From positions 7,509,501-7,573,500 of the forward strand of contig NZ_CP101137.1 in assembly GCF_028473745.1 (NCBI RefSeq): DNA of 64,000 nt, given 5' to 3'. The notes under the pieces were generated by a model that saw nothing but the letters and a program-made list of their open reading frames with translations, did no database searches and was not told the DNA's origin. How positions within the stretch are numbered: the stretch's first letter is position 1; every line of letters starts with the position of its first letter. Source of the DNA: Streptomyces sp. M92 (GTDB taxonomy: Bacteria > Actinomycetota > Actinomycetes > Streptomycetales > Streptomycetaceae). The translations under genes and the position numbers were made by a program. Below are positions 14,565 through 24,517 of the stretch, piece after piece.

Positions 14565-17159
14565 TCAGTCCAGTACCGGCAGCAGCTCGGGCAGGTGGCC
14601 GTCGGAGGCCATTGCCGCGCGCTGCCGTTCCTCCGGTACCGGGCCGTACAGCGTGGTGCGCGGCTTCGCGGGGCGGCCGGCCGCGTCGGCGACCGCGATC
14701 AGGTCCTTGACCGACTTGTACGAGCCGTACGACGAGCCCGCCATCCGCGAGATCGTCTCCTCCATCAGGGTCCCGCCGAGGTCGTTCGCACCGGAGCGGA
14801 GCATTTCCGCCGCACCCTCGGTGCCCAGTTTCACCCAGCTCGTCTGGATGTTGGGGATGTGGGGGTGGAGGAGGAGGCGGGCCATCGCCGTCACCGCGCG
14901 GTTGTCCCGGAGGGTGGGTCCCGGCCGGGCGATGCCCGCCAGGTACACCGGCGCGTTGGTGTGGATGAAGGGGAGCGTCACGAACTCGGTGAAGCCGCCG
15001 GTGCGCTGCTGGATGCCGGCCAGGGTGCGCAGATGGCCCAGCCAGTGGCGGGGCTGGTCGACGTGGCCGTACATCATCGTGGACGAGGAGCGGATGCCCA
15101 GCTCGTGGGCGGTCTCGATGACCTCGATCCAGGTCGCCGCGGGCAGCTTGCCCTTGGTGAGGATCCAGCGGACCTCGTCGTCGAGGATCTCCGCCGCGGT
15201 GCCGGGGATCGAGTCGAGGCCCGCCTCCTTCGCGGCGGTCAGCCACTCGCGGATCGACATGCCGGTGCGGGTCGCGCCGTTGACGACCTCCATCGGCGAG
15301 AAGGCGTGCACGTGCATGCCGGGGACCCGGGCCCTGACCGCCTTCGCGATGTCGAAGTAGGCCGTGCCGGGCAGGTCGGGGTGGATGCCGCCCTGCATGC
15401 AGACCTCGACGGCGCCCACGTCCCACGCCTGCTGGGCGCGGTCGGCGACCTGGTCGAGGGAGAGGGTGTAGGCGTCGGCGTCGGTGCGGCGCTGCGCGAA
15501 GGCACAGAAGCGGCAGCCGGTGTAGCAGACGTTGGTGAAGTTGATGTTGCGGGTGACGATGTAGGTGACGTCGTCACCGACGGCCGACCTGCGCACGTCG
15601 TCGGCGACCTCGCACAGGGCGTCCAGGGCCGGGCCGTCGGCGTGCAGCAGGGCCAGGGCCTCGTCGTCGGTGAGCCTCGTCGGGTCGTCGGCGGCCGTCG
15701 TCAGCGCGGCGCGTACGTCGGTGTCGATGCGCTCGGGGACCATGCCGGGGGCGGCGGCCTCGCGCAGGGCGCTCCAGTCGCCGTACACCTCGTCGAAGTC
15801 GTCGCGGCGGTCCGAGGTGCGACCCTCGGTGTCGATGGCGGTGTGGAGGTCGGTGCGGCCGGTGGCGGTGAAGACCTCGTCCGGTTCCTGCCAGGGGTGG
15901 CCCTCGACCACGGCGTCCTCGCGGGCGAGGCCGGTGGCCGGGTCGGCCAGGGCCGTCACGTGCGGTCGCAGGCGCGGGTCCAGCCAGGGTTCGCCGCGGC
16001 GGACGAACTCCGGGTAGACGCAGAGCCGTTCGCGCAGTTCGAAGCCGACGGCGCGGGACTTGGCGGCGAGTTCGTCGATCTGCGGCCAGGGACGCTCGGG
16101 GTTGACATGGTCGATGGTGAGCGGGGAGACGCCGCCCCAGTCGTCGATGCCGGCGCCGATCAGCCGCTCGTACTCGGCGTCCACCAGGTTGGGCGGGGCC
16201 TGGAGGCAGGCGGCGGGGCCCATGATGTGCCGGGCGACGGCGACCGTGGCGACCAGCTCGTCCAGTTCCGCGTCCGGCATGCCGCGCATCGCGGTGTCGG
16301 GCTTGGCGCGGAAGTTCTGGATGATCAGTTCCTGGATGCCGTGGTAGGCGCGGGAGACCTTGCGGAGGGCGAACAGGGACTCCGCGCGCTCCTCGTAGGT
16401 CTCGCCGATGCCGATCAGCAGGCCCGAGGTGAAGGGGACGGAGGAGCGGCCTGCGTCCTCCAGGACGCGCAGGCGGACGGCGGGTTCCTTGTCCGGGGAG
16501 CCGTGGTGGGGGCCGCCGGGCTCGGACCACAGGCGGGTGGCGGTGGTCTCCAGCATCATGCCCATGGAGGGCGCGACGGGCTTGAGCCGCTGGAAGTCCG
16601 TCCAGCTCATCACGCCCGGATTGAGGTGGGGCAGCAGGCCCGTCTCCTCCAGGATGCGGATGGAGATCGCGCGGACGTAGGCGATCGTGTCGTCGTAGCC
16701 GTGCGCGTCGAGCCATTCGCGCGCCTCGGGCCAGCGGTCCTCGGGCTTGTCGCCGAGGGTGATGAGGGCTTCCTTGCAGCCGAGGGCGGCGCCCTTGCGG
16801 GCGATGTCGAGGACCTCGTCCGGCGACATGAACATCCCGTGGCCGGTGCGGCGCAGCTTGCCGGGGACGGTGACGAAGGTGCAGTAGTGGCACTTGTCCC
16901 GGCACAGGCGGGTCAGCGGGACGAAGACGCTCTTCGAGTACGTGATGACGCCGGGGCGTCCGGCGGCCTCAAGGCCCGCGTCCCGGACCCGGGCCGCGGA
17001 CGCGGTGAGGTCGGTCAGGTGCTCGCCGCGCGCCTGGAGCAGCACGGCGGCCTCGGAGACGTCGAGGGCGACGCCGTCCCGGGCGCGTTTGAGGGCGCGA
17101 CGCAGGGCGTTCTCGGTGGGGCCCGTCGAGCCGGTTCCGGGGGTCGCGGAAGTCGTCAT
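14565..17159 (-). CDS. fbiC: Bifunctional FO synthase (CofG/CofH fusion)
   Basis: An 864-residue fusion that makes 7,8-didemethyl-8-hydroxy-5-deazariboflavin, the chromophore of coenzyme F420, from tyrosine and 5-amino-6-ribitylaminouracil. It holds two radical-SAM domains. The CofG half has the iron-sulfur motif CRDKCHYC (C86, C90, C93); the CofH half has CYTGCRFC near residue 550. Archaea and cyanobacteria split these halves into two genes; actinobacteria fuse them. The ATG at 17159 follows GAAGG only closely, so a leaderless start is possible; the longer opening from 17213 adds a basic stretch not expected in the family. An F420-type nitroreductase lies 4 kb away. Confidence 0.96.
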
Positions 17160-17355
17160 CCTTCGAGCATACGAGCGGCATGATCGAAGCGCCGGGCCGT
17201 CCCGCTCGCCCACCCTCCGGTTTCCGGCCCGCTATGCGCGTACCCCCTTCTCTTGTACGGGAGTTCACGGCTCAATACGAGGGTTGCACGCGCCACCCAC
17301 GCACCACCCCCGCACCGCCCGTGCCAGTCACCGACGACACCTTGGGAGCAGCAGC

Positions 17356-18882
17356 ATGTGCGAGGACGACCACGCAGGAATCGGCAGACGCGCGGTGTTC
17401 GTGACGGGAGCCGCCGCCGCGCTTACGTTGGGAACCGTGAGCTTCGCATCGGCGGCACCCCGTGAGCGGCGGACGAGAACGGTGCGGGGCACACTGCCCA
17501 CCGGCTCGCCCGACTTCGTGTACGTCCCCGTCGAGATCCCCTCCGGGGTCCGTGAACTCCACGTCGCCTACACCTACGACCGGCCCGCCGTCCCGGCCGG
17601 CACCGCGGGCAACGCCCTCGACATCGGCCTCTTCGACGAGCGCGGCACCGCACTGGGCGGCCGGGGCTTCAGGGGCTGGTCGGGCGGGGCGCGCACCGAG
17701 TTCTTCGTGCGGGCGGACGACGCGACGCCCGGGTACCTGCCGGGTCCGGTGCGGCCGGGCACGTGGAACATCGCGCTCGGCCCGTACACGGTGGCGCCGC
17801 AGGGCCTGTCGTACGAGATCACGATCACGCTGACGTACGGGGAGCAGGGCGAGACCCCGCGGCCGGTGTACCCGCCGGAGCGCGCGAAGGGGCGGGGCCG
17901 CGCCTGGTACCGGGGCGACTGCCACCTGCACTCGGTGTACTCCGACGGCCGCTACACCCTCGCCGAGATCGCGGAGCTGGCGCGGGCGGCCGGGCTGGAC
18001 TTCATCAACTCCTCGGAGCACAACACGCACTCGGCGCACGCGCACTGGGGACCGGAGGCCGGGGACGACCTGCTGATCATGCTGGGCGAGGAGGTGACGA
18101 CCCGCAACGGGCACGTCGTCGCCCTCGGCACCGACCCCGGCACCTTCGTCGACTGGCGCTACCGGGCCCGGGACAACCGTTTCGGGCGGTTCGCGCGCCA
18201 GATCCGCCGCGCCGGGGGCCTGGTCGTCCCGGCCCACCCGCACGCCACCTGCATCGGCTGCAACTGGAAGTTCGGGTTCGGGGAGGCGGACGCGGTCGAG
18301 GTGTGGAACGGGGCCTACACGCCGGACGACGAGGTGGCGCTCGCCGACTGGGACGGCATGCTGGTCGCCGCCGTACGGGAGGGGCGCGGCGGGCGGCACC
18401 GGGGGGACTGGATCCCGGCGATGGGCAGCAGCGACTCCCACCGCTCCCCCGACGTCATCGGGCGCCCGCAGACCGTCGTCCTCGCCGACGACCTGACCCG
18501 GGAGGCGATCCAGGAGGGCATCCGGGCCGGGCGGTCGTACGTCGCCGAGTCGGCGAAGCTGTCGCTGGCCTTCACCGCCTCCGGCGGGCGGGGCGAGCAC
18601 GCCGGCATCGGTGAGCGGCTGCGCGTGGACGACGACACCCCGGTCACCGTCCGCCTGGAGGTGACGGGCGCCCCGCGCTGCACGGTGCGGTTCGTGACGG
18701 ACCAGGGCGTGCTGTTCACCGGCGGTCCGCTGCCGGTGTCCGGCGCGGACGTCGTGGAATGGCGCACGACGGCGTCCTACGCGGCGTACGTGCGGGCGGA
18801 GCTGCGGCACGAGGCGGCGGCGGGGCCGTTGCCGGGGGCGCTGGCCGCGTTCACGAATCCGATTTTCCTGGGGCGGGGCTAG
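17356..18882 (+). CDS. Exported PHP-domain metal-dependent phosphoesterase
   Basis: A 508-residue protein. GRRAVFVTGAAAALTLG near residues 10-26 followed by ASAAP looks like a twin-arginine (Tat) signal with a cleavage site near residue 35. A beta-rich domain of about 150 residues follows, then a PHP domain starting with DCHLHSVYSDG (D-x-H-x-H), SSEHNTHS and a late SSDSHR. PHP domains hydrolyse phosphate esters with two or three metals. Export through Tat fits a metallo-enzyme folded in the cytoplasm. The ATG at 17356 has GGGAG about 7 bases upstream. It is divergent from fbiC. Confidence 0.88.
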   Translation: MCEDDHAGIGRRAVFVTGAAAALTLGTVSFASAAPRERRTRTVRGTLPTGSPDFVYVPVEIPSGVRELHVAYTYDRPAVPAGTAGNALDIGLFDERGTALGGRGFRGWSGGARTEFFVRADDATPGYLPGPVRPGTWNIALGPYTVAPQGLSYEITITLTYGEQGETPRPVYPPERAKGRGRAWYRGDCHLHSVYSDGRYTLAEIAELARAAGLDFINSSEHNTHSAHAHWGPEAGDDLLIMLGEEVTTRNGHVVALGTDPGTFVDWRYRARDNRFGRFARQIRRAGGLVVPAHPHATCIGCNWKFGFGEADAVEVWNGAYTPDDEVALADWDGMLVAAVREGRGGRHRGDWIPAMGSSDSHRSPDVIGRPQTVVLADDLTREAIQEGIRAGRSYVAESAKLSLAFTASGGRGEHAGIGERLRVDDDTPVTVRLEVTGAPRCTVRFVTDQGVLFTGGPLPVSGADVVEWRTTASYAAYVRAELRHEAAAGPLPGALAAFTNPIFLGRG

Positions 18883-18982
18883 CACGAAGGCCGGCCGGCG
18901 GCAGGCGTATTCACGTAATCGGGAAACGGGCCGAAATACCCTTCGCCGCCTCGGTCCGTGCAGTGCTCATGTAGACTTGTCG

Positions 18983-19065
18983 TGCGTTATCGCAAGGGGA
19001 AGGAAGCCTCAAGGCGATCTGACAGGCGTGGAAACCGAAGGTCCCTCGGACTTCCTTCCCCGATT
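18983..19065. repeat. Structured repeat element, copy 1
   Basis: An 83-base element whose ends pair perfectly: GGGGAAGGAAG (18996-19006) with 19051-19061. Inside are a small hairpin GCC-TCAA-GGC (19006-19015), the conserved core GATCTGACAGGCGTGGAAAC, and a third stem CCGA/TCGG. A small flanking hairpin TGCG-TTAT-CGCA precedes it. The same architecture and core recur at 19874-19963 in the same orientation. Copy 1 lies about 50 bases beyond the stop of the three-helix membrane gene. I cannot match it to a known RNA family; the coding strand of the element is unsettled. Confidence 0.75.
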
Positions 19066-19113
19066 ACCGCTCTTGTCCCTCGACGGAGAATGCACAGCCG
19101 TGCAATTCCCGCG

Positions 19114-19389
19114 CTACTGGCGGACGAGGGCGATCACATTCCAGACGAACGCCCCGTGGGCGAGAAGACACGTGGCCCATGCCCCGCCCGTGCGGGTTCC
19201 GTGGCGCAGCACCGTGCTCCACCCGGCCGCCACCAGGGCGGCGGACAGGGCCACAAGCACCCAGGAAGCGGCGAGCCACGGCGTGGAGGGCTCCGTGAAG
19301 AGCCTTACCAGCGCCGCGGGGGCGAGCGCGAGCAGAGGCAGGGCCCACGTGCCTTCCGTGGCGGCGCGGGGGGACATGGTGTCGGTCAT
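19114..19389 (-). CDS. Small three-helix membrane protein, possible immunity partner
   Basis: A 91-residue protein with three hydrophobic segments at about residues 14-33, 40-60 and 70-89. No family is recognised. It lies 44 bases downstream of a gene for a secreted cationic protein, on the same strand, so the two probably form an operon. Small membrane proteins encoded directly after bacteriocin-like genes are often immunity proteins; that role is inferred only from context and size. The pair sits between two copies of a structured repeat. Confidence 0.6.
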   Translation of the reverse strand: MTDTMSPRAATEGTWALPLLALAPAALVRLFTEPSTPWLAASWVLVALSAALVAAGWSTVLRHGTRTGGAWATCLLAHGAFVWNVIALVRQ

Positions 19390-19433
19390 ACCGAGTACTC
19401 CGTGTCTTCGTGTTCGGCCGAGCGGGGCCCGCG

Positions 19434-19862
19434 TCAGCGGAGGGCGTTGTAGATCTCAAGGAGCGTCAGGCCCGGGGTGATGGCCTTGAGCGGGGCCTTC
19501 ACCCACCAGGACAGCCCGTCGTACCACTTCTTGAAGTCGCTGTACTTGCCCTTGATGGCCTTCGCGAAGCCGCCGATCTTGCTGAACGCGGCCTTGATGG
19601 CACCCCACTTGCCGGCCGCCGCGTACTGACCGCCGGCGACGGCACGCATCTCCGAGCGCTCGGCCGCGGAGAGTTCGGCTGCCAGCGGGCTCGCCAGCAG
19701 GGTGCGCGCCGCCTGCTGGGCCTCGGCCTGCTGCGTGGCGGAGACGGTGACCCGTGCCGGGCCCGGTGCGGGCTGGGCCGCCTGGGCCAGCCCGGCGGTC
19801 CCGCCGAGGACGACGGCCGTGACGGCCGAAACGGCGGCCATACGCAGTGCATTGCTGTTCAT
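19434..19862 (-). CDS. Secreted small protein with cationic amphipathic C-terminus (bacteriocin-like candidate)
   Basis: A 142-residue protein. Residues 1-29 are a Sec signal peptide (MNSNALRMAAVSAVTAVVLG, ending AQA). A helical Ala/Glu/Arg-rich segment runs to about residue 85, ending AVAGGQYA. The last 60 residues are Lys/Trp/Gly-rich and amphipathic (GKWGAIKAAFSKIGGFAKAI, then FKKWYDGLSWWVKAPLK), resembling class II or leaderless bacteriocins in composition. No family is recognised and toxicity is not shown. The ATG at 19862 has AAGGAGAC upstream. The ribosome site overlaps the right arm of a hairpin (CTTGCG-4-CGCAAG on this strand) that ends the structured element at 19874-19963, suggesting translational control. 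Confidence 0.65.
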   Translation of the reverse strand: MNSNALRMAAVSAVTAVVLGGTAGLAQAAQPAPGPARVTVSATQQAEAQQAARTLLASPLAAELSAAERSEMRAVAGGQYAAAGKWGAIKAAFSKIGGFAKAIKGKYSDFKKWYDGLSWWVKAPLKAITPGLTLLEIYNALR

Positions 19863-19873
19863 TCGTGTCTCCT

Positions 19874-19963
19874 TGCGTCGTCGCAAGGGGAAAGAAGCCC
19901 GTACATGGGCGATCTGAACAGGCGTGGAAACCGACGGTCCCCCCGGTACTTCTTCCCCCGATT
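19874..19963. repeat. Structured repeat element, copy 2
   Basis: A 90-base relative of the element at 18983. The outer stem GGGGAAAGAAG (19887-19897) pairs with 19949-19958 with one bulged A. The inner hairpin is longer here (GCCC-6-GGGC, 19897-19910), and the core GATCTGAACAGGCGTGGAAA is nearly identical to copy 1. The helices are kept while their sequences change, which points to a selected structure. On the minus strand it forms the leader of the secreted-protein gene and ends with a hairpin that includes the start of its ribosome site. On the plus strand it would precede the 31-codon ORF at 20003. Confidence 0.75.
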
Positions 19964-20002
19964 CGGTCTGCCGTCATCCCTCTGGTCAGGAGGGAAAACG
20001 AC

Positions 20003-20098
20003 ATGTACCGGAACTCCATTGGTCGGTGGAGCGCCAGGCACACCAGCATGCTACCCACGATTCGATCACTTGACCACCGGCACATACACGCACGGTAA
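20003..20098 (+). CDS. Possible 31-residue small ORF
   Basis: An ATG at 20003 follows AGGAGGGAAAAC, a near-ideal ribosome site, and opens a 31-codon frame rich in Arg, His and Ser (MYRNSIGRWSARHTSMLPTI) ending in TAA. It has no recognisable motif, signal or membrane segment. It lies just beyond structured element copy 2 in the plus direction. The strong ribosome site is the only real support; it could be chance. Confidence 0.3.
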   Translation: MYRNSIGRWSARHTSMLPTIRSLDHRHIHAR

Positions 20099-20147
20099 TT
20101 GAGCATTCATCGAATTCACGCCGGGCGGCCGTTCCCGCTCTCCCGCG

Positions 20148-20942
20148 TCAATTCCCGGCCAGGTCCACGACGACCGCCGCGTGGTCGGAGGGCCACACCC
20201 CGCCCACGGGTCCGTCGCCCGCCCGTCGCGCGGCGCGGACCCGGCCGAGTCCGTCCGGTCCGGGCGGTCCCACGTGGACGTAGTCGATCCGGGCGCCCGG
20301 CACCGGCGGGTCCGGGATGTACGGGTTGGCCGGGTCCCAGGTGGCGCCCGGGGCAGCCGGGTCGGCGTGCTCCCAGGCGTCGTGCAGTCGCCCCGCGCGC
20401 AGGAGGCGGACCTCCGGCGACTCGGGGCGGGCGTTGAGGTCGCCGGTGACGACGGGCGGGAATGCGGTGCCGTGGCGGTGCGCGGCGACGAAGGCCGCGA
20501 GGGCGGCGGCCTGGTCCCGGCGTACGGCGGCGGCGTGGTCTTTGGAGTTGAGGTGAGCGGTGAAGAACGGGACCGGGTGGCCCGGCGCGTCCAGGCGGGC
20601 GTAGAGCGCGAGGCGTCCGTCGTCGAGCTCCTCGGGGGCGGGCAGCCGCAGCGCGGCCCGCTCCGTCACGGGCCAGCGGCTCAGCACCGCGGTGCCGATG
20701 GCCACCGTGTCGTCCCCGATCCGCCGCTGCCACCGCTCGGGGGCCTCGGAGGCGGCCCAGGCGCAGTGCAGGCCGAGTTCACCGGCCAGCCACTCGGCGA
20801 GGTTCGCGCCGTCGTCGGCGGCCCACACCTCCTGGAGCCCGACGACATCGGGACGCAACTCCGCCAGCACGGCGAGGATCGCCTTCTGCCGTTCGGCCCA
20901 CGGCCCGAACCGCCACCACAGATTCCAGGTCACGACCCGCAC
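20148..20942 (-). CDS. Endonuclease/exonuclease/phosphatase-family protein
   Basis: A 264-residue protein with all core motifs of the EEP metallo-hydrolase fold: VTWNLWW at the start, VGLQEVW (catalytic Glu), FTAHLNS, TGDLNARPES (Asp-x-Asn) and the final PSDHAAVVVDL (Asp-His pair). Members cleave nucleic acids, inositol phosphates or sphingomyelin; no substrate can be chosen here. The GTG at 20942 starts one codon before the first conserved strand; an in-frame ATG at 21005 would add 21 residues. It is divergent from the nitroreductase gene. Confidence 0.87.
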   Translation of the reverse strand: MRVVTWNLWWRFGPWAERQKAILAVLAELRPDVVGLQEVWAADDGANLAEWLAGELGLHCAWAASEAPERWQRRIGDDTVAIGTAVLSRWPVTERAALRLPAPEELDDGRLALYARLDAPGHPVPFFTAHLNSKDHAAAVRRDQAAALAAFVAAHRHGTAFPPVVTGDLNARPESPEVRLLRAGRLHDAWEHADPAAPGATWDPANPYIPDPPVPGARIDYVHVGPPGPDGLGRVRAARRAGDGPVGGVWPSDHAAVVVDLAGN

Positions 20943-21037: not shown

Positions 21038-21454
21038 ATGTCGAAGCCGCCCTACGCCGAGAAGAAGTACCGGGCCGTCACGGCCGTCCAGCGCCGGCTG
21101 AACGCCGTGACGCGCCGCCTGCCCGCCCAGACCCTGCTGGAGACCACCGGCCGCGTCTCCGGCCTGCCCCGCCGCACGCCGGTGGGCGGGCGCCGGGTCG
21201 GGGACTCCTTCTGGCTGGTGTCGGAGTTCGGTGAGCGCTCCCAGTACGTCCGCAACATCCGCGCCGACCCGCGGGTACGGGTACGCCTCCGCGGCCGCTG
21301 GTACCCGGGCACGGCCCGCCTCCTGCCCGACGACGACCCGGTCGCCCGCCTCCGTCTCCTCCCCCGACTCAACAGCCTGGCGGTGCGGGCCATGGGCGTC
21401 GGGACGGGGCACCTGACGGTGCGAGTGGACCTGGACGAGGGTGAAAGCAGGTGA
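21038..21454 (+). CDS. Deazaflavin (F420)-dependent nitroreductase-family protein
   Basis: A 138-residue protein of the Ddn/DUF385 split beta-barrel family. The signature LLETTGRVSGLPRRTPVGG, FWLVSEFGERSQYVRNI and RADPRVRVRLRGRWYPG is complete. These proteins bind coenzyme F420 and reduce diverse substrates, or act as small binding proteins. The nearby fbiC gene, which makes the F420 chromophore, fits this cofactor. The gene starts 91 bases before afsR and runs in the same direction. Confidence 0.88.
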   Translation: MSKPPYAEKKYRAVTAVQRRLNAVTRRLPAQTLLETTGRVSGLPRRTPVGGRRVGDSFWLVSEFGERSQYVRNIRADPRVRVRLRGRWYPGTARLLPDDDPVARLRLLPRLNSLAVRAMGVGTGHLTVRVDLDEGESR

Positions 21455-21544: not shown

Positions 21545-24517
21545 ATGGACGGTGTACCGCGGGTTCCGGAGCAGCGGCATCCGGGAAGCCCGGCGGAACC
21601 CGAACCGCCGGCCGCGCTGCGCTTCGGCGTGCTCGGACCGGTACGGGCCTGGCGCGGCGATGAACCGCTGGCCACCGGCTCCCCCCAGCAACGAGCCCTG
21701 CTGGCGGCCCTGCTGCTCCGCGAGGGCCGGACGGTCACCGCGCCCGAGCTGATCGACGCCCTGTGGGGCGAGGAACCGCCGTCGCAGGCACTGGCGGCGG
21801 TACGGACGTACGCGTCGCGGCTGCGGAAGATCCTGGACCCCGGCGTGCTGGTGAGCGAGTCGGGCGGGTACGCGGTGCGGCTGCCGGGCGAGGGCGCCCT
21901 GGACCTGATCGCGGCCCAGGACCTGGCCGCCGAGGCGGAGAAGGCCCGGGGCGCCGGAGACCTGTGCCGCGCCCGTGACGTACTGCGCCGCGCGCTGGCG
22001 CTGTGGGACGGCGAGGTACTGGCGGGCGTACCGGGCCCGTACGCGGAGGGGCAGCGCGTACGCCTGGAGGAGTGGCGGCTCCAACTCCTCGAGACCTGCC
22101 TCGACATGGATCTGGAACAGGGCTGCCACGCCGAGGCCGTCTCGGAGCTGACGGCGCTCACCGCGGCCCACCCCCTGCGCGAACGCCTGCGCGAGCTCCT
22201 GATGCTGGCCCTCTACCGCAGCGGACGCCAGGCGGAGGCCCTCGCGGTCTACGCGGACACGCGCCGCCTGCTGGCCGACGAACTCGGCGTCGACCCGCGC
22301 CCCGGCCTCCAGGAACTCCAGCAGCGCATCCTCCGGGCGGACCCGGCCCTGGCCGAACCGTCGGCACCGGCCGAGGAGACGGCGACGGCCCCGGCCCGCC
22401 CGGCCCAGCTCCCCGCCACGGTGCCCGACTTCACCGGCCGTACGGCCTTCGTCCGCGAGCTGAGCGACGTACTGGCCTCGGCGTCCGGGGACGGGCCGTC
22501 GGGCCGCGTCATGGCGGTCTCCGCGCTGGCCGGCATCGGCGGCGTCGGCAAGACGACCCTCGCGGTGCACGTCGCCCACCGGGCGCGGGCGGCCTTCCCC
22601 GACGGGCAGCTCTACGTCGACCTCCAGGGCGCCGGCGCGCGGGCGGCGGAACCGGAGACGGTGCTGGGCTCCTTCCTGCGCGCCCTCGGCACGCCCGACT
22701 CGGCCGTCCCCGACTCCCTGGAGGAACGCGCCGCCCTCTACCGGTCCGTCCTGGACGGCCGCCGCGTCCTCGTCCTCCTCGACAACGCCCGCGACGCCGC
22801 GCAGGTGCGGCCCCTGCTGCCCGGCACGGACGGGTGCGCGGCGCTCGTCACGTCCCGGGTGCGGATGGTGGACCTCGCCGGGGCGCACCTGGTCGACCTG
22901 GACGTGATGTCCCCGGACGAGGCGCTGACTCTCTTCACCAGGATCGTGGGCGAGGAGCGGGTGGCCTCGGAGCGGGAGGCGGCGCTGGACGTGGTCGGGG
23001 CGTGCGGTTTCCTGCCCCTCGCCATCCGCATCGCCGCTTCCCGGCTGGCGGCCCGCCGCACCTGGACCGTCTCGGTCCTCGCCGCGAAACTGGCGGACGA
23101 GCGGCGCCGGCTGGACGAACTGCGGGCCGGCGACCTGGCGGTCAAGGCCACCTTCGAACTGGGCTACGGCCAGCTGGAACCGGCCCAGGCCCGTGCCTTC
23201 CGGCTGCTGGGGCTGGCGGACGGCCCGGACATCTCCCTGGCGGCCGCGGCGGCGGTACTGGACCTCCCGGTCGAGGACACGGAGGATCTGCTGGAGTCCC
23301 TGGTCGACACGTCCCTGCTGGAGTCGGCGGCCCCCGGCCGCTACCGCCTGCACGACCTCGTCCGCCTCTACGCGCGTGCGTGCGCGGAACGGGACGAGCA
23401 TCCGCCGAGCGAGCGGGGGGCGGCGCTGTCGCGGTTGCTGGACTTCTACCTGGCGACGGCGGCGGGGGTGTACGCGATCGAGCGGCCCGGGGACCGGCTG
23501 GTGGACGGCCTGGAGCCGACGGAGTACCCGGGACTGTCGTTCACCGAGGGATCGGCCGCGCTGGACTGGCTGTACTCCGAGGCGGCACCGTTGCTGGCGG
23601 GTGTGCGGCAGGCCGCGGGAACCGACAGGTTGCGCCGCGCGGTGGACCTGCTGTGGGCGGCGAAGGACCTGGCGGAGTCCGGGGCGAACTCCCACCAGTA
23701 CGAGACGACGGCGAGTGCGATGTGCGAGGCCACCGCGGCCGCCGGGGACACTCGCGCTCAGGGCAGGGCACTGACCACCCTCACCAACGTCCTGCTGGTG
23801 TCCGGCCGCATCCAGCAGGCCGCCGAGCAGGCGGCACTGGCCATGAAACTGGCGGAGTCGGCGCTGGACACGACGGCTGTCAGCTGGGTCGCCAACGACC
23901 GCGGGCTCATCTCACTGCACCAGGGGCGGTATGCGGACGGCCGGGCCTTCCTGGAGCAGGCCATCGACGGGTACCGCGCCGCCGGGAACCGGGCCGGTGA
24001 GGCGCTGAGTCTTTGCAATCTCTCCCGGGCCCACCTGGGCATGGGAAACACCGCCAAGGCCGTGGCCATCGCACACCGCGGGCTGACCGCGCAGCTCGAC
24101 ATCGGCCGGACCATGCGGCTCGCCAACGGGCACTTCACCCTGGGCATCGCGCTGACCCAGGCCGACCGCCACGGCGAAGCCCTCCAGCAGTTCTCCGACG
24201 CCCTGCTCATCTTCGAAGCCCACCGGCAGCGGCTCTGGCAGGGGACGACCAACTTCCGCATCGCCGAGGTCCACCTGGCCGCCCGCCGCCCCGCGCAGGC
24301 GGCCCAGCACGCCGAACAGGCTCTGGCCCTGGGGTGCATCGGGGGTGACCGCATGCGCGGGAACGTGCTGACCCTGTTGGGCCGCGCCCTCTCCGCGCTC
24401 GGTCAGGCGGATCGGGCCAAGGCGTGCTGGCAGGAGGCCCTCAACATCTTCCAGCAGATCGGCGCTCCGCAGGCGGACGACGTGAGGGCACTCCTCTCCC
24501 CTCTGTCAGCGGCCTGA
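21545..24517 (+). CDS. afsR: Global regulator AfsR (SARP with NTPase and TPR domains)
   Basis: A 990-residue protein, close to the 993 residues of S. coelicolor AfsR. Residues about 22-110 form the OmpR-like winged HTH and 115-270 the bacterial transcriptional activator domain; together these make the SARP module. An NB-ARC-type ATPase follows, with Walker A GIGGVGKTT (330-338) and LVLLDNARD as Walker B. The C-terminal third consists of TPR repeats. In S. coelicolor AfsK phosphorylates AfsR, which then activates afsS and so raises actinorhodin and undecylprodigiosin production. The ATG at 21545 opens the known N-terminus. Its target afsS lies 213 bases downstream. Confidence 0.97.
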   Translation: MDGVPRVPEQRHPGSPAEPEPPAALRFGVLGPVRAWRGDEPLATGSPQQRALLAALLLREGRTVTAPELIDALWGEEPPSQALAAVRTYASRLRKILDPGVLVSESGGYAVRLPGEGALDLIAAQDLAAEAEKARGAGDLCRARDVLRRALALWDGEVLAGVPGPYAEGQRVRLEEWRLQLLETCLDMDLEQGCHAEAVSELTALTAAHPLRERLRELLMLALYRSGRQAEALAVYADTRRLLADELGVDPRPGLQELQQRILRADPALAEPSAPAEETATAPARPAQLPATVPDFTGRTAFVRELSDVLASASGDGPSGRVMAVSALAGIGGVGKTTLAVHVAHRARAAFPDGQLYVDLQGAGARAAEPETVLGSFLRALGTPDSAVPDSLEERAALYRSVLDGRRVLVLLDNARDAAQVRPLLPGTDGCAALVTSRVRMVDLAGAHLVDLDVMSPDEALTLFTRIVGEERVASEREAALDVVGACGFLPLAIRIAASRLAARRTWTVSVLAAKLADERRRLDELRAGDLAVKATFELGYGQLEPAQARAFRLLGLADGPDISLAAAAAVLDLPVEDTEDLLESLVDTSLLESAAPGRYRLHDLVRLYARACAERDEHPPSERGAALSRLLDFYLATAAGVYAIERPGDRLVDGLEPTEYPGLSFTEGSAALDWLYSEAAPLLAGVRQAAGTDRLRRAVDLLWAAKDLAESGANSHQYETTASAMCEATAAAGDTRAQGRALTTLTNVLLVSGRIQQAAEQAALAMKLAESALDTTAVSWVANDRGLISLHQGRYADGRAFLEQAIDGYRAAGNRAGEALSLCNLSRAHLGMGNTAKAVAIAHRGLTAQLDIGRTMRLANGHFTLGIALTQADRHGEALQQFSDALLIFEAHRQRLWQGTTNFRIAEVHLAARRPAQAAQHAEQALALGCIGGDRMRGNVLTLLGRALSALGQADRAKACWQEALNIFQQIGAPQADDVRALLSPLSAA

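Follow-up and report, generated by a model that had tools for sequence, protein, structure and literature searches.

Aureocin A53-like leaderless bacteriocins of Actinomycetota are short, cationic, Trp-containing helical peptides which are encoded together with membrane proteins. According to the outline given in the source cited here, they have been reported from Streptomyces too and are active as translated, that is, leaderless (PMC11580447). Other systems with which a small secreted peptide and its neighboring genes can be compared are: (i) Sec-exported unmodified (class II type) bacteriocins, accompanied by a membrane immunity protein; (ii) lantibiotic-protection ABC transporters; and (iii) riboswitch-like cis-regulatory RNAs. 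The locus described here lies in a 64,000-nucleotide stretch of the genome of Streptomyces sp. M92 (hereafter, the window) and is read, with moderate confidence, as a horizontally acquired bacteriocin and immunity operon under a duplicated, structured and probably switch-like leader.

On the minus strand, the locus runs from leader 1 through a secreted-peptide gene (142 aa; 19434..19862, ORF 19437-19862) and a membrane-protein gene (91 aa, putative immunity; 19114..19389, ORF 19117-19389) to leader 2. The first gene is supported by the ORF list and by relatives, the second by the ORF list and by homologues, and 44 bases (19390-19433) separate the two ORFs. The inserted block that contains them, to which no strand is assigned, has approximate limits at 18883..20147 and lies between two convergent genes: a CehA/McbA-type metallohydrolase gene, called the PHP gene in the original prediction, which ends at 18882, and an exo/endonuclease-family gene, which ends at 20148. 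Leader 1 (19860..19970, minus strand; covariance model 103.7 bits, with covariation) comprises the helices P1, P2, P3 and P4 and has its 3' end on the ATG, while its paralogue, leader 2 (18968..19072, minus strand), scores 94.9 bits. In the repeat comparison, the two copies have the same orientation, are 891 bases apart and share 80% identity (E=1.8e-14), with no third match in the whole genome; the repeat families D4 (26 nt at 88%) and D5 (24 nt at 96%) belong to them. Both copies recur at the same places in related genomes and, hence, go beyond chance. The two minus-strand genes 44 bases apart and the two same-orientation copies about 890 bases apart are thus present as the original prediction had described them.

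Upstream of leader 1, a TAGCAT hexamer (20048-20053, minus strand), found by eye, is a possible promoter, and TANNNT-like hexamers and a GATC were seen by eye at a similar distance in relatives. As for the wider surroundings, a gene for the global regulator AfsR (window 21545-24517; NF053617, 1736 bits against a cut-off of 1430) lies some 1.5 kb from the inserted block, and the site is flanked by CofGH, of F420 precursor synthesis (14568-17213), and by a deazaflavin-dependent nitroreductase-family protein (21038-21451).

The secreted precursor can be divided into three parts, with presumed cleavage sites between them: (i) a putative signal peptide (residues ~1-28), recognized by eye and by conservation from a hydrophobic N-terminus and an AQA motif; (ii) a pro-region with helices at 42-76; and (iii) a cationic C-terminal domain (~83-142). 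Taking an assumed cleavage point, the last 62 residues of the window precursor have a net charge of +7.8, a pI of 10.1, four Trp and no Cys, which bears out the Lys/Trp-rich C-terminus noticed earlier. The same stretch carries a net charge of +2.9 to +8.8 and 3-5 Trp in 17 of the 18 precursors measured, L054 being the exception (+0.9, one Trp), and Cys is absent from it in all 18. The pro-region is neutral or acidic in 15 of them and basic in L052, L053 and L054. The structural model places helices at 42-76 and five short helices at 86-141, with a pLDDT of about 64-86 by blocks and 61.7 overall. As anticipated, neither the precursor nor the membrane protein of the window reaches the cut-off of any Pfam or NCBIfam family, and the relatives' precursors match no family of either library. 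The fold search with the precursor model yielded nothing significant (Foldseek, best E 3.9; VIA, best Z 4.4 over 104 chains), a negative that says little given the low confidence of the model, and the sequence profile met solved structures only at E values of at least 0.3.

The precursor family occurs, at scattered positions, in the window strain and in 12 of 198 other Streptomyces genomes (13/199 in all); scanning of genome contigs yielded 20 named loci, all in Streptomyces. The nearest relative, in Streptomyces sp. E2N166, is 92% identical. There was no precursor match in the plasmid collection, and none of the 158 stretches of viral contigs that matched a pattern was a precursor relative, so that these two collections point to no carrier. 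The same leader and gene order are also found with two precursors that have no detectable similarity to that of the window (L054 and L055; BLASTP E 6.2 and 0.23, respectively), each with a membrane-protein ORF behind it. At L055:7360-8721, the gene behind the leader encodes a secreted protein of 315 aa that matches no family, and a 90-aa membrane ORF comes next. A second precursor type under the same leader was observed at L054, L109 and L115; it has 176 aa in L054 and L109, where a membrane ORF of four to five segments follows.

The model of the 91-aa membrane protein has helices at 8-14, 16-32, 36-63 and 68-90, with modest confidence (mean pLDDT 64.6). A small membrane ORF lies behind the precursor, on the same strand, in all 13 loci first compared; in these loci it has one to three predicted hydrophobic segments, and some of the ORFs are homologues of the 91-aa protein. 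Leader 2 is present in 13 distinct loci, ten of which (L016, L017, L049, L050, L051, L058, L061, L062, L063 and L064) carry an ABC ATPase and a permease behind it; in L016 and L017, the ATPase gene follows the second repeat immediately. The window, L057 and L060 have leader 2 without a transporter, and L052, L106 and L111, with a second precursor type, have a transporter and one leader seen. Because most leader-2 loci (10/13) carry a transporter, its absence from the window is most simply read as a loss, which E2N166 shares. The best NCBIfam score of the L050 ATPase is to TIGR03740 (lantibiotic protection), followed by DrrA; with 151 bits, it falls short of the cut-off of 310 and is not a formal member of TIGR03740. 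The relatives' permease matches no Pfam or NCBIfam family. At L064:6936-8375, ATPase and permease form a single 480-aa frame from which part of the ATPase is missing.

Since leader 2 precedes the ABC transporter genes in relatives, the repeats are better understood as structured leaders than as cassette ends, and they look like copies of a previously undescribed folded leader RNA, so far found only in Streptomyces. A covariance model made from eight copies (R1) and searched against 392 genomes gave 19 matches in 13 genomes, all of them at peptide loci, which implies a fixed place before genes of one function. With a second covariance model and a looser limit, 391 genomes of the order were searched and 19 gave matches, from one of the ten genera covered; L115 and L116 are weak matches of this model, and the last three (L117, L118 and L119; E 0.0056-0.019) were judged false on inspection. 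Some handles denote the same genome (L059 and L049; L107 and L057; L112, L120 and L062). When 42 distinct rows, derived from 47 matches and including weak ones of 16-27 bits, were aligned, 15 of the 26 pairs were found to change on both sides (38 cells), compared with shuffled means of 5.9 and 9.1 (0/500 shuffles as high) and with 3-7 pairs when the partner was slid; as the model structure guided this alignment, the count leans towards that structure. In a plain MAFFT alignment of 32 rows, P1 is uneven (7, 9 and 9 of 32 rows paired at three positions), partly due to misplaced gaps.

The invariant core strand TTTCCACGCC is present in 30 of the 32 main-type rows, L062_A and L064_A having GTTCCACGCC in its place. 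Folding of the copy at 19866-19970 was no better than that of shuffles (z -0.79). Rfam 15 holds no family for the leaders, the best match being RT-19 (E 0.41), outside them, and no Rfam family reached its gathering score in eight related loci; a scan of literature listings, mostly outside subscription journals, returned no report of the peptide family or of the leader. Upstream of leader 1, the window has two minus-strand hairpins with a GACC loop, read in the sequence and by locus comparison: hairpin 1 (20014..20031) and hairpin 2 (19978..19994; CCCTC-CTGACCA-GAGGG). A loop containing GACC, on a stem of at least six pairs, was found at this place in 20 of 32 loci (100 shuffles: mean 2.3, maximum 7); as several of these loci are close kin, some of the rows depend on one another. 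A possible pairing between the GACC loop and the leader core, examined by eye, was abandoned since it does not hold in the window.

The 3' end of leader 1 falls on the start codon of the precursor gene, also in relatives with one copy only, and its P4 hairpin lies over the ribosome-binding site. In the window, this hairpin (CCTTGCG-ACGA-CGCAAGG; 19871..19888, minus strand) has seven pairs and stands 8 nt before the ATG. Of the 19 leader-1 copies, 16 have a P4 of at least seven pairs at the ribosome-binding site, versus one of 13 leader-2 copies (Fisher p=2.9e-5), the leader-1 copies of L024, L054 and L055 being the three that lack the extended form. The extended P4, of seven or eight pairs, uses C residues that otherwise close P1, and its 5' arm is the shared one. 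The extended P4 is also kept, with other letters (e.g., CCCTTTGTG/CACAAAGGG), by seven of the ten copies of a divergent class whose core is different (L065-L074). The codon that follows leader 2 is ATG in seven of 13 copies, and CTG, CCG or ACG in the rest. On the basis of these pairings, leader 1 probably acts in a switch-like manner on translation of the peptide. Single-strand folding gives the ribosome-binding site an unpaired probability of 0.22-0.76 in the main-type leader-1 copies; by folding alone, the site is not firmly hidden and the winning state is not evident.

Regarding the origin of the block, 11 of the 29 relatives fetched have an empty site, with 15-171 bp between the two flanking genes; in one of these comparisons (L077), the distance is 26 bp and the flanking proteins are 86-92% identical. 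The metallohydrolase gene falls outside the fetched flank in 13 of the 29. The cassette is absent from all 29, and E2N166 has the same block in the same place. Judged by this comparison, the whole block is an insertion. Presence of the cassette varies between related strains, as the original prediction had proposed to check, and, with the precursor gene in 13/199 genomes and the site empty in relatives, the genes are not ancient and syntenic throughout Streptomyces without the repeats. In five relatives (L082, L094, L096, L098 and L105), 534-1195 bp of different sequence are found between the same flanking genes, and the site may therefore be an insertion hot spot.

Alternatively, a mobile cassette could have the genes as its cargo and the two repeats as its ends or recombination sites, which would fold as single-stranded DNA in the manner of integron attC sites; such an element would account for two structured copies with one orientation, for the site being empty in relatives and for the different genomic places occupied in different species. 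But the insertion extends beyond the repeats by ~100 and 184 nt, so that the block is larger than the stretch between them; several loci have a single copy, sited on the start codon; and no target-site duplication was seen by eye. Furthermore, the leader tree, from which the two very divergent leaders of L054 and L055 were left out and whose inner support is mostly weak, sorts the copies by position and not by locus (17 + 13 rows, two label changes, 0/500 shuffles as low), which means that leaders 1 and 2, as placed by this tree, are old paralogues with separate histories. Mobile-element ends were rejected on these grounds and on the empty-site comparison, and such an element is very improbable. 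Of the moveable cassette bracketed by repeats that had been proposed, the insertion stands; the bracket falls, as the repeats are paralogous leaders inside the limits. With the repeats taken as leaders, another alternative, which deserves real weight without being probable, concerns leader 2 in the window: it may be a mere terminator or a decaying relic, given its place between convergent genes and its long P1 stem, and with a 19-codon frame but no transporter behind it. Against this, leader 2 differs between the window and E2N166 by one substitution in 87 bases, compared with 19/93 in the gap beside it (Fisher p=1.5e-5), 22/233 at third codon positions (p=0.005) and 28/429 and 18/276 in the precursor and membrane-protein genes (p=0.03 versus the coding regions), and this count takes in loops, which a terminator could dispense with; it comes from only one species pair, so that constraint on the stem alone, together with chance, could still produce it. 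Leader 1 (19874-19963) shows one substitution in 89 bases and one deletion between the same two genomes. Because leader 2 has changed so little with no gene behind it, and the ATG that follows it is ACG in E2N166, it seems, in this species pair, to be retained on its own account.

The reading of the two genes as a bacteriocin and its immunity protein, which the original prediction had drawn from their order, gains from comparison (the order in 13/13 loci, the cationic Trp-rich C-terminus and the relatives' transporter) and stops short of proof. As an alternative, the secreted protein could be a signal, morphogenetic or surface protein, with the membrane protein as its receptor or partner. The precursor has neither a characterized relative nor a fold match, which leaves room for such a role, and patchiness alone is no proof of a weapon; nevertheless, several observations argue against it: the cationic Trp-rich C-terminus behind a pro-region, rapid divergence joined to patchy presence, the ABC transporter of relatives, which resembles those used in self-protection, and the fact that the unrelated precursors of L054 and L055 come with the same leader and gene order. 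We consider a non-toxic role unlikely.

Returning to the bacteriocin and immunity operon, we infer antimicrobial action, immunity, cleavage, RNA switching and a trigger as follows. The Sec-type precursor would be exported and its pro-region cut off outside the cell, releasing a cationic C-terminal peptide of ~60 residues that would target the membranes of competitors. Protection of the producer would fall to the 91-aa membrane protein, and the ABC transporter of most relatives would be a second layer of protection, lost in the lineage of the window strain. Leader 1 would control translation of the peptide: the C run at the 3' side of P1 would pair either with the 5' G run or, via the extended P4, with the ribosome-binding site, and, as one C run has these alternative partners, the two states of leader 1 would exclude each other. 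Their balance might be shifted by a small molecule, a protein or the state of the cell. Leader 2 would have arisen by duplication of leader 1, keeping the folded core and, in most species, losing the ribosome-binding-site switch; it may act otherwise on the mRNA, by protecting or ending the peptide-immunity mRNA or by setting expression of the transporter. A broader proposal, which is tentative and rather doubtful, is that a new class of switch-like leader RNAs governs such peptides, including unrelated precursors, with copy 1 switching translation and the duplicated copy 2 acting alone after loss of its ribosome-binding-site switch, perhaps by drawing off, as a decoy, the ligand or protein of copy 1; in the window, copy 2 would have outlived the transporter while staying almost unchanged.

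If active, the peptides would form a family of secreted, unmodified antimicrobials in Streptomyces that is not yet listed and can be mined. The leader provides a search handle, as it also led to the precursors of L054 and L055, which a sequence search from the window protein would miss, and an RNA leader common to unrelated toxin precursors would give direct access to the cue that prompts a soil bacterium to release such a peptide. The second leader, conserved with no gene behind it, is a concrete and testable oddity.

When the locus is set against the systems mentioned at the beginning, the relatives' ATPase has its best NCBIfam score with the lantibiotic-protection transporters, from which it differs by falling well below their cut-off, and the window differs by having no transporter. 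Like riboswitch-like cis-regulatory RNAs, the leaders combine covarying helices around the invariant core TTTCCACGCC with an adjacent ribosome-binding-site hairpin; unlike them, they reach no Rfam family, are not known to bind a ligand and include a second copy that persists without the switch portion. As for the aureocin A53-like peptides, in so far as the published outline describes them, the window precursor is not a leaderless member of the group, since a putative signal peptide and a pro-region, ~80 residues in all, precede its cationic region. The window peptide family may bear some sequence resemblance to aureocin A53. With Sec-exported class II type bacteriocins, the locus shares a signal peptide (putative here), a small cationic C-terminal peptide, a membrane-protein gene directly behind and, in relatives, an ABC transporter; it differs from them in that its family has no match in the family libraries, carries a long pro-region between signal and peptide, and would be regulated by paired structured leaders.
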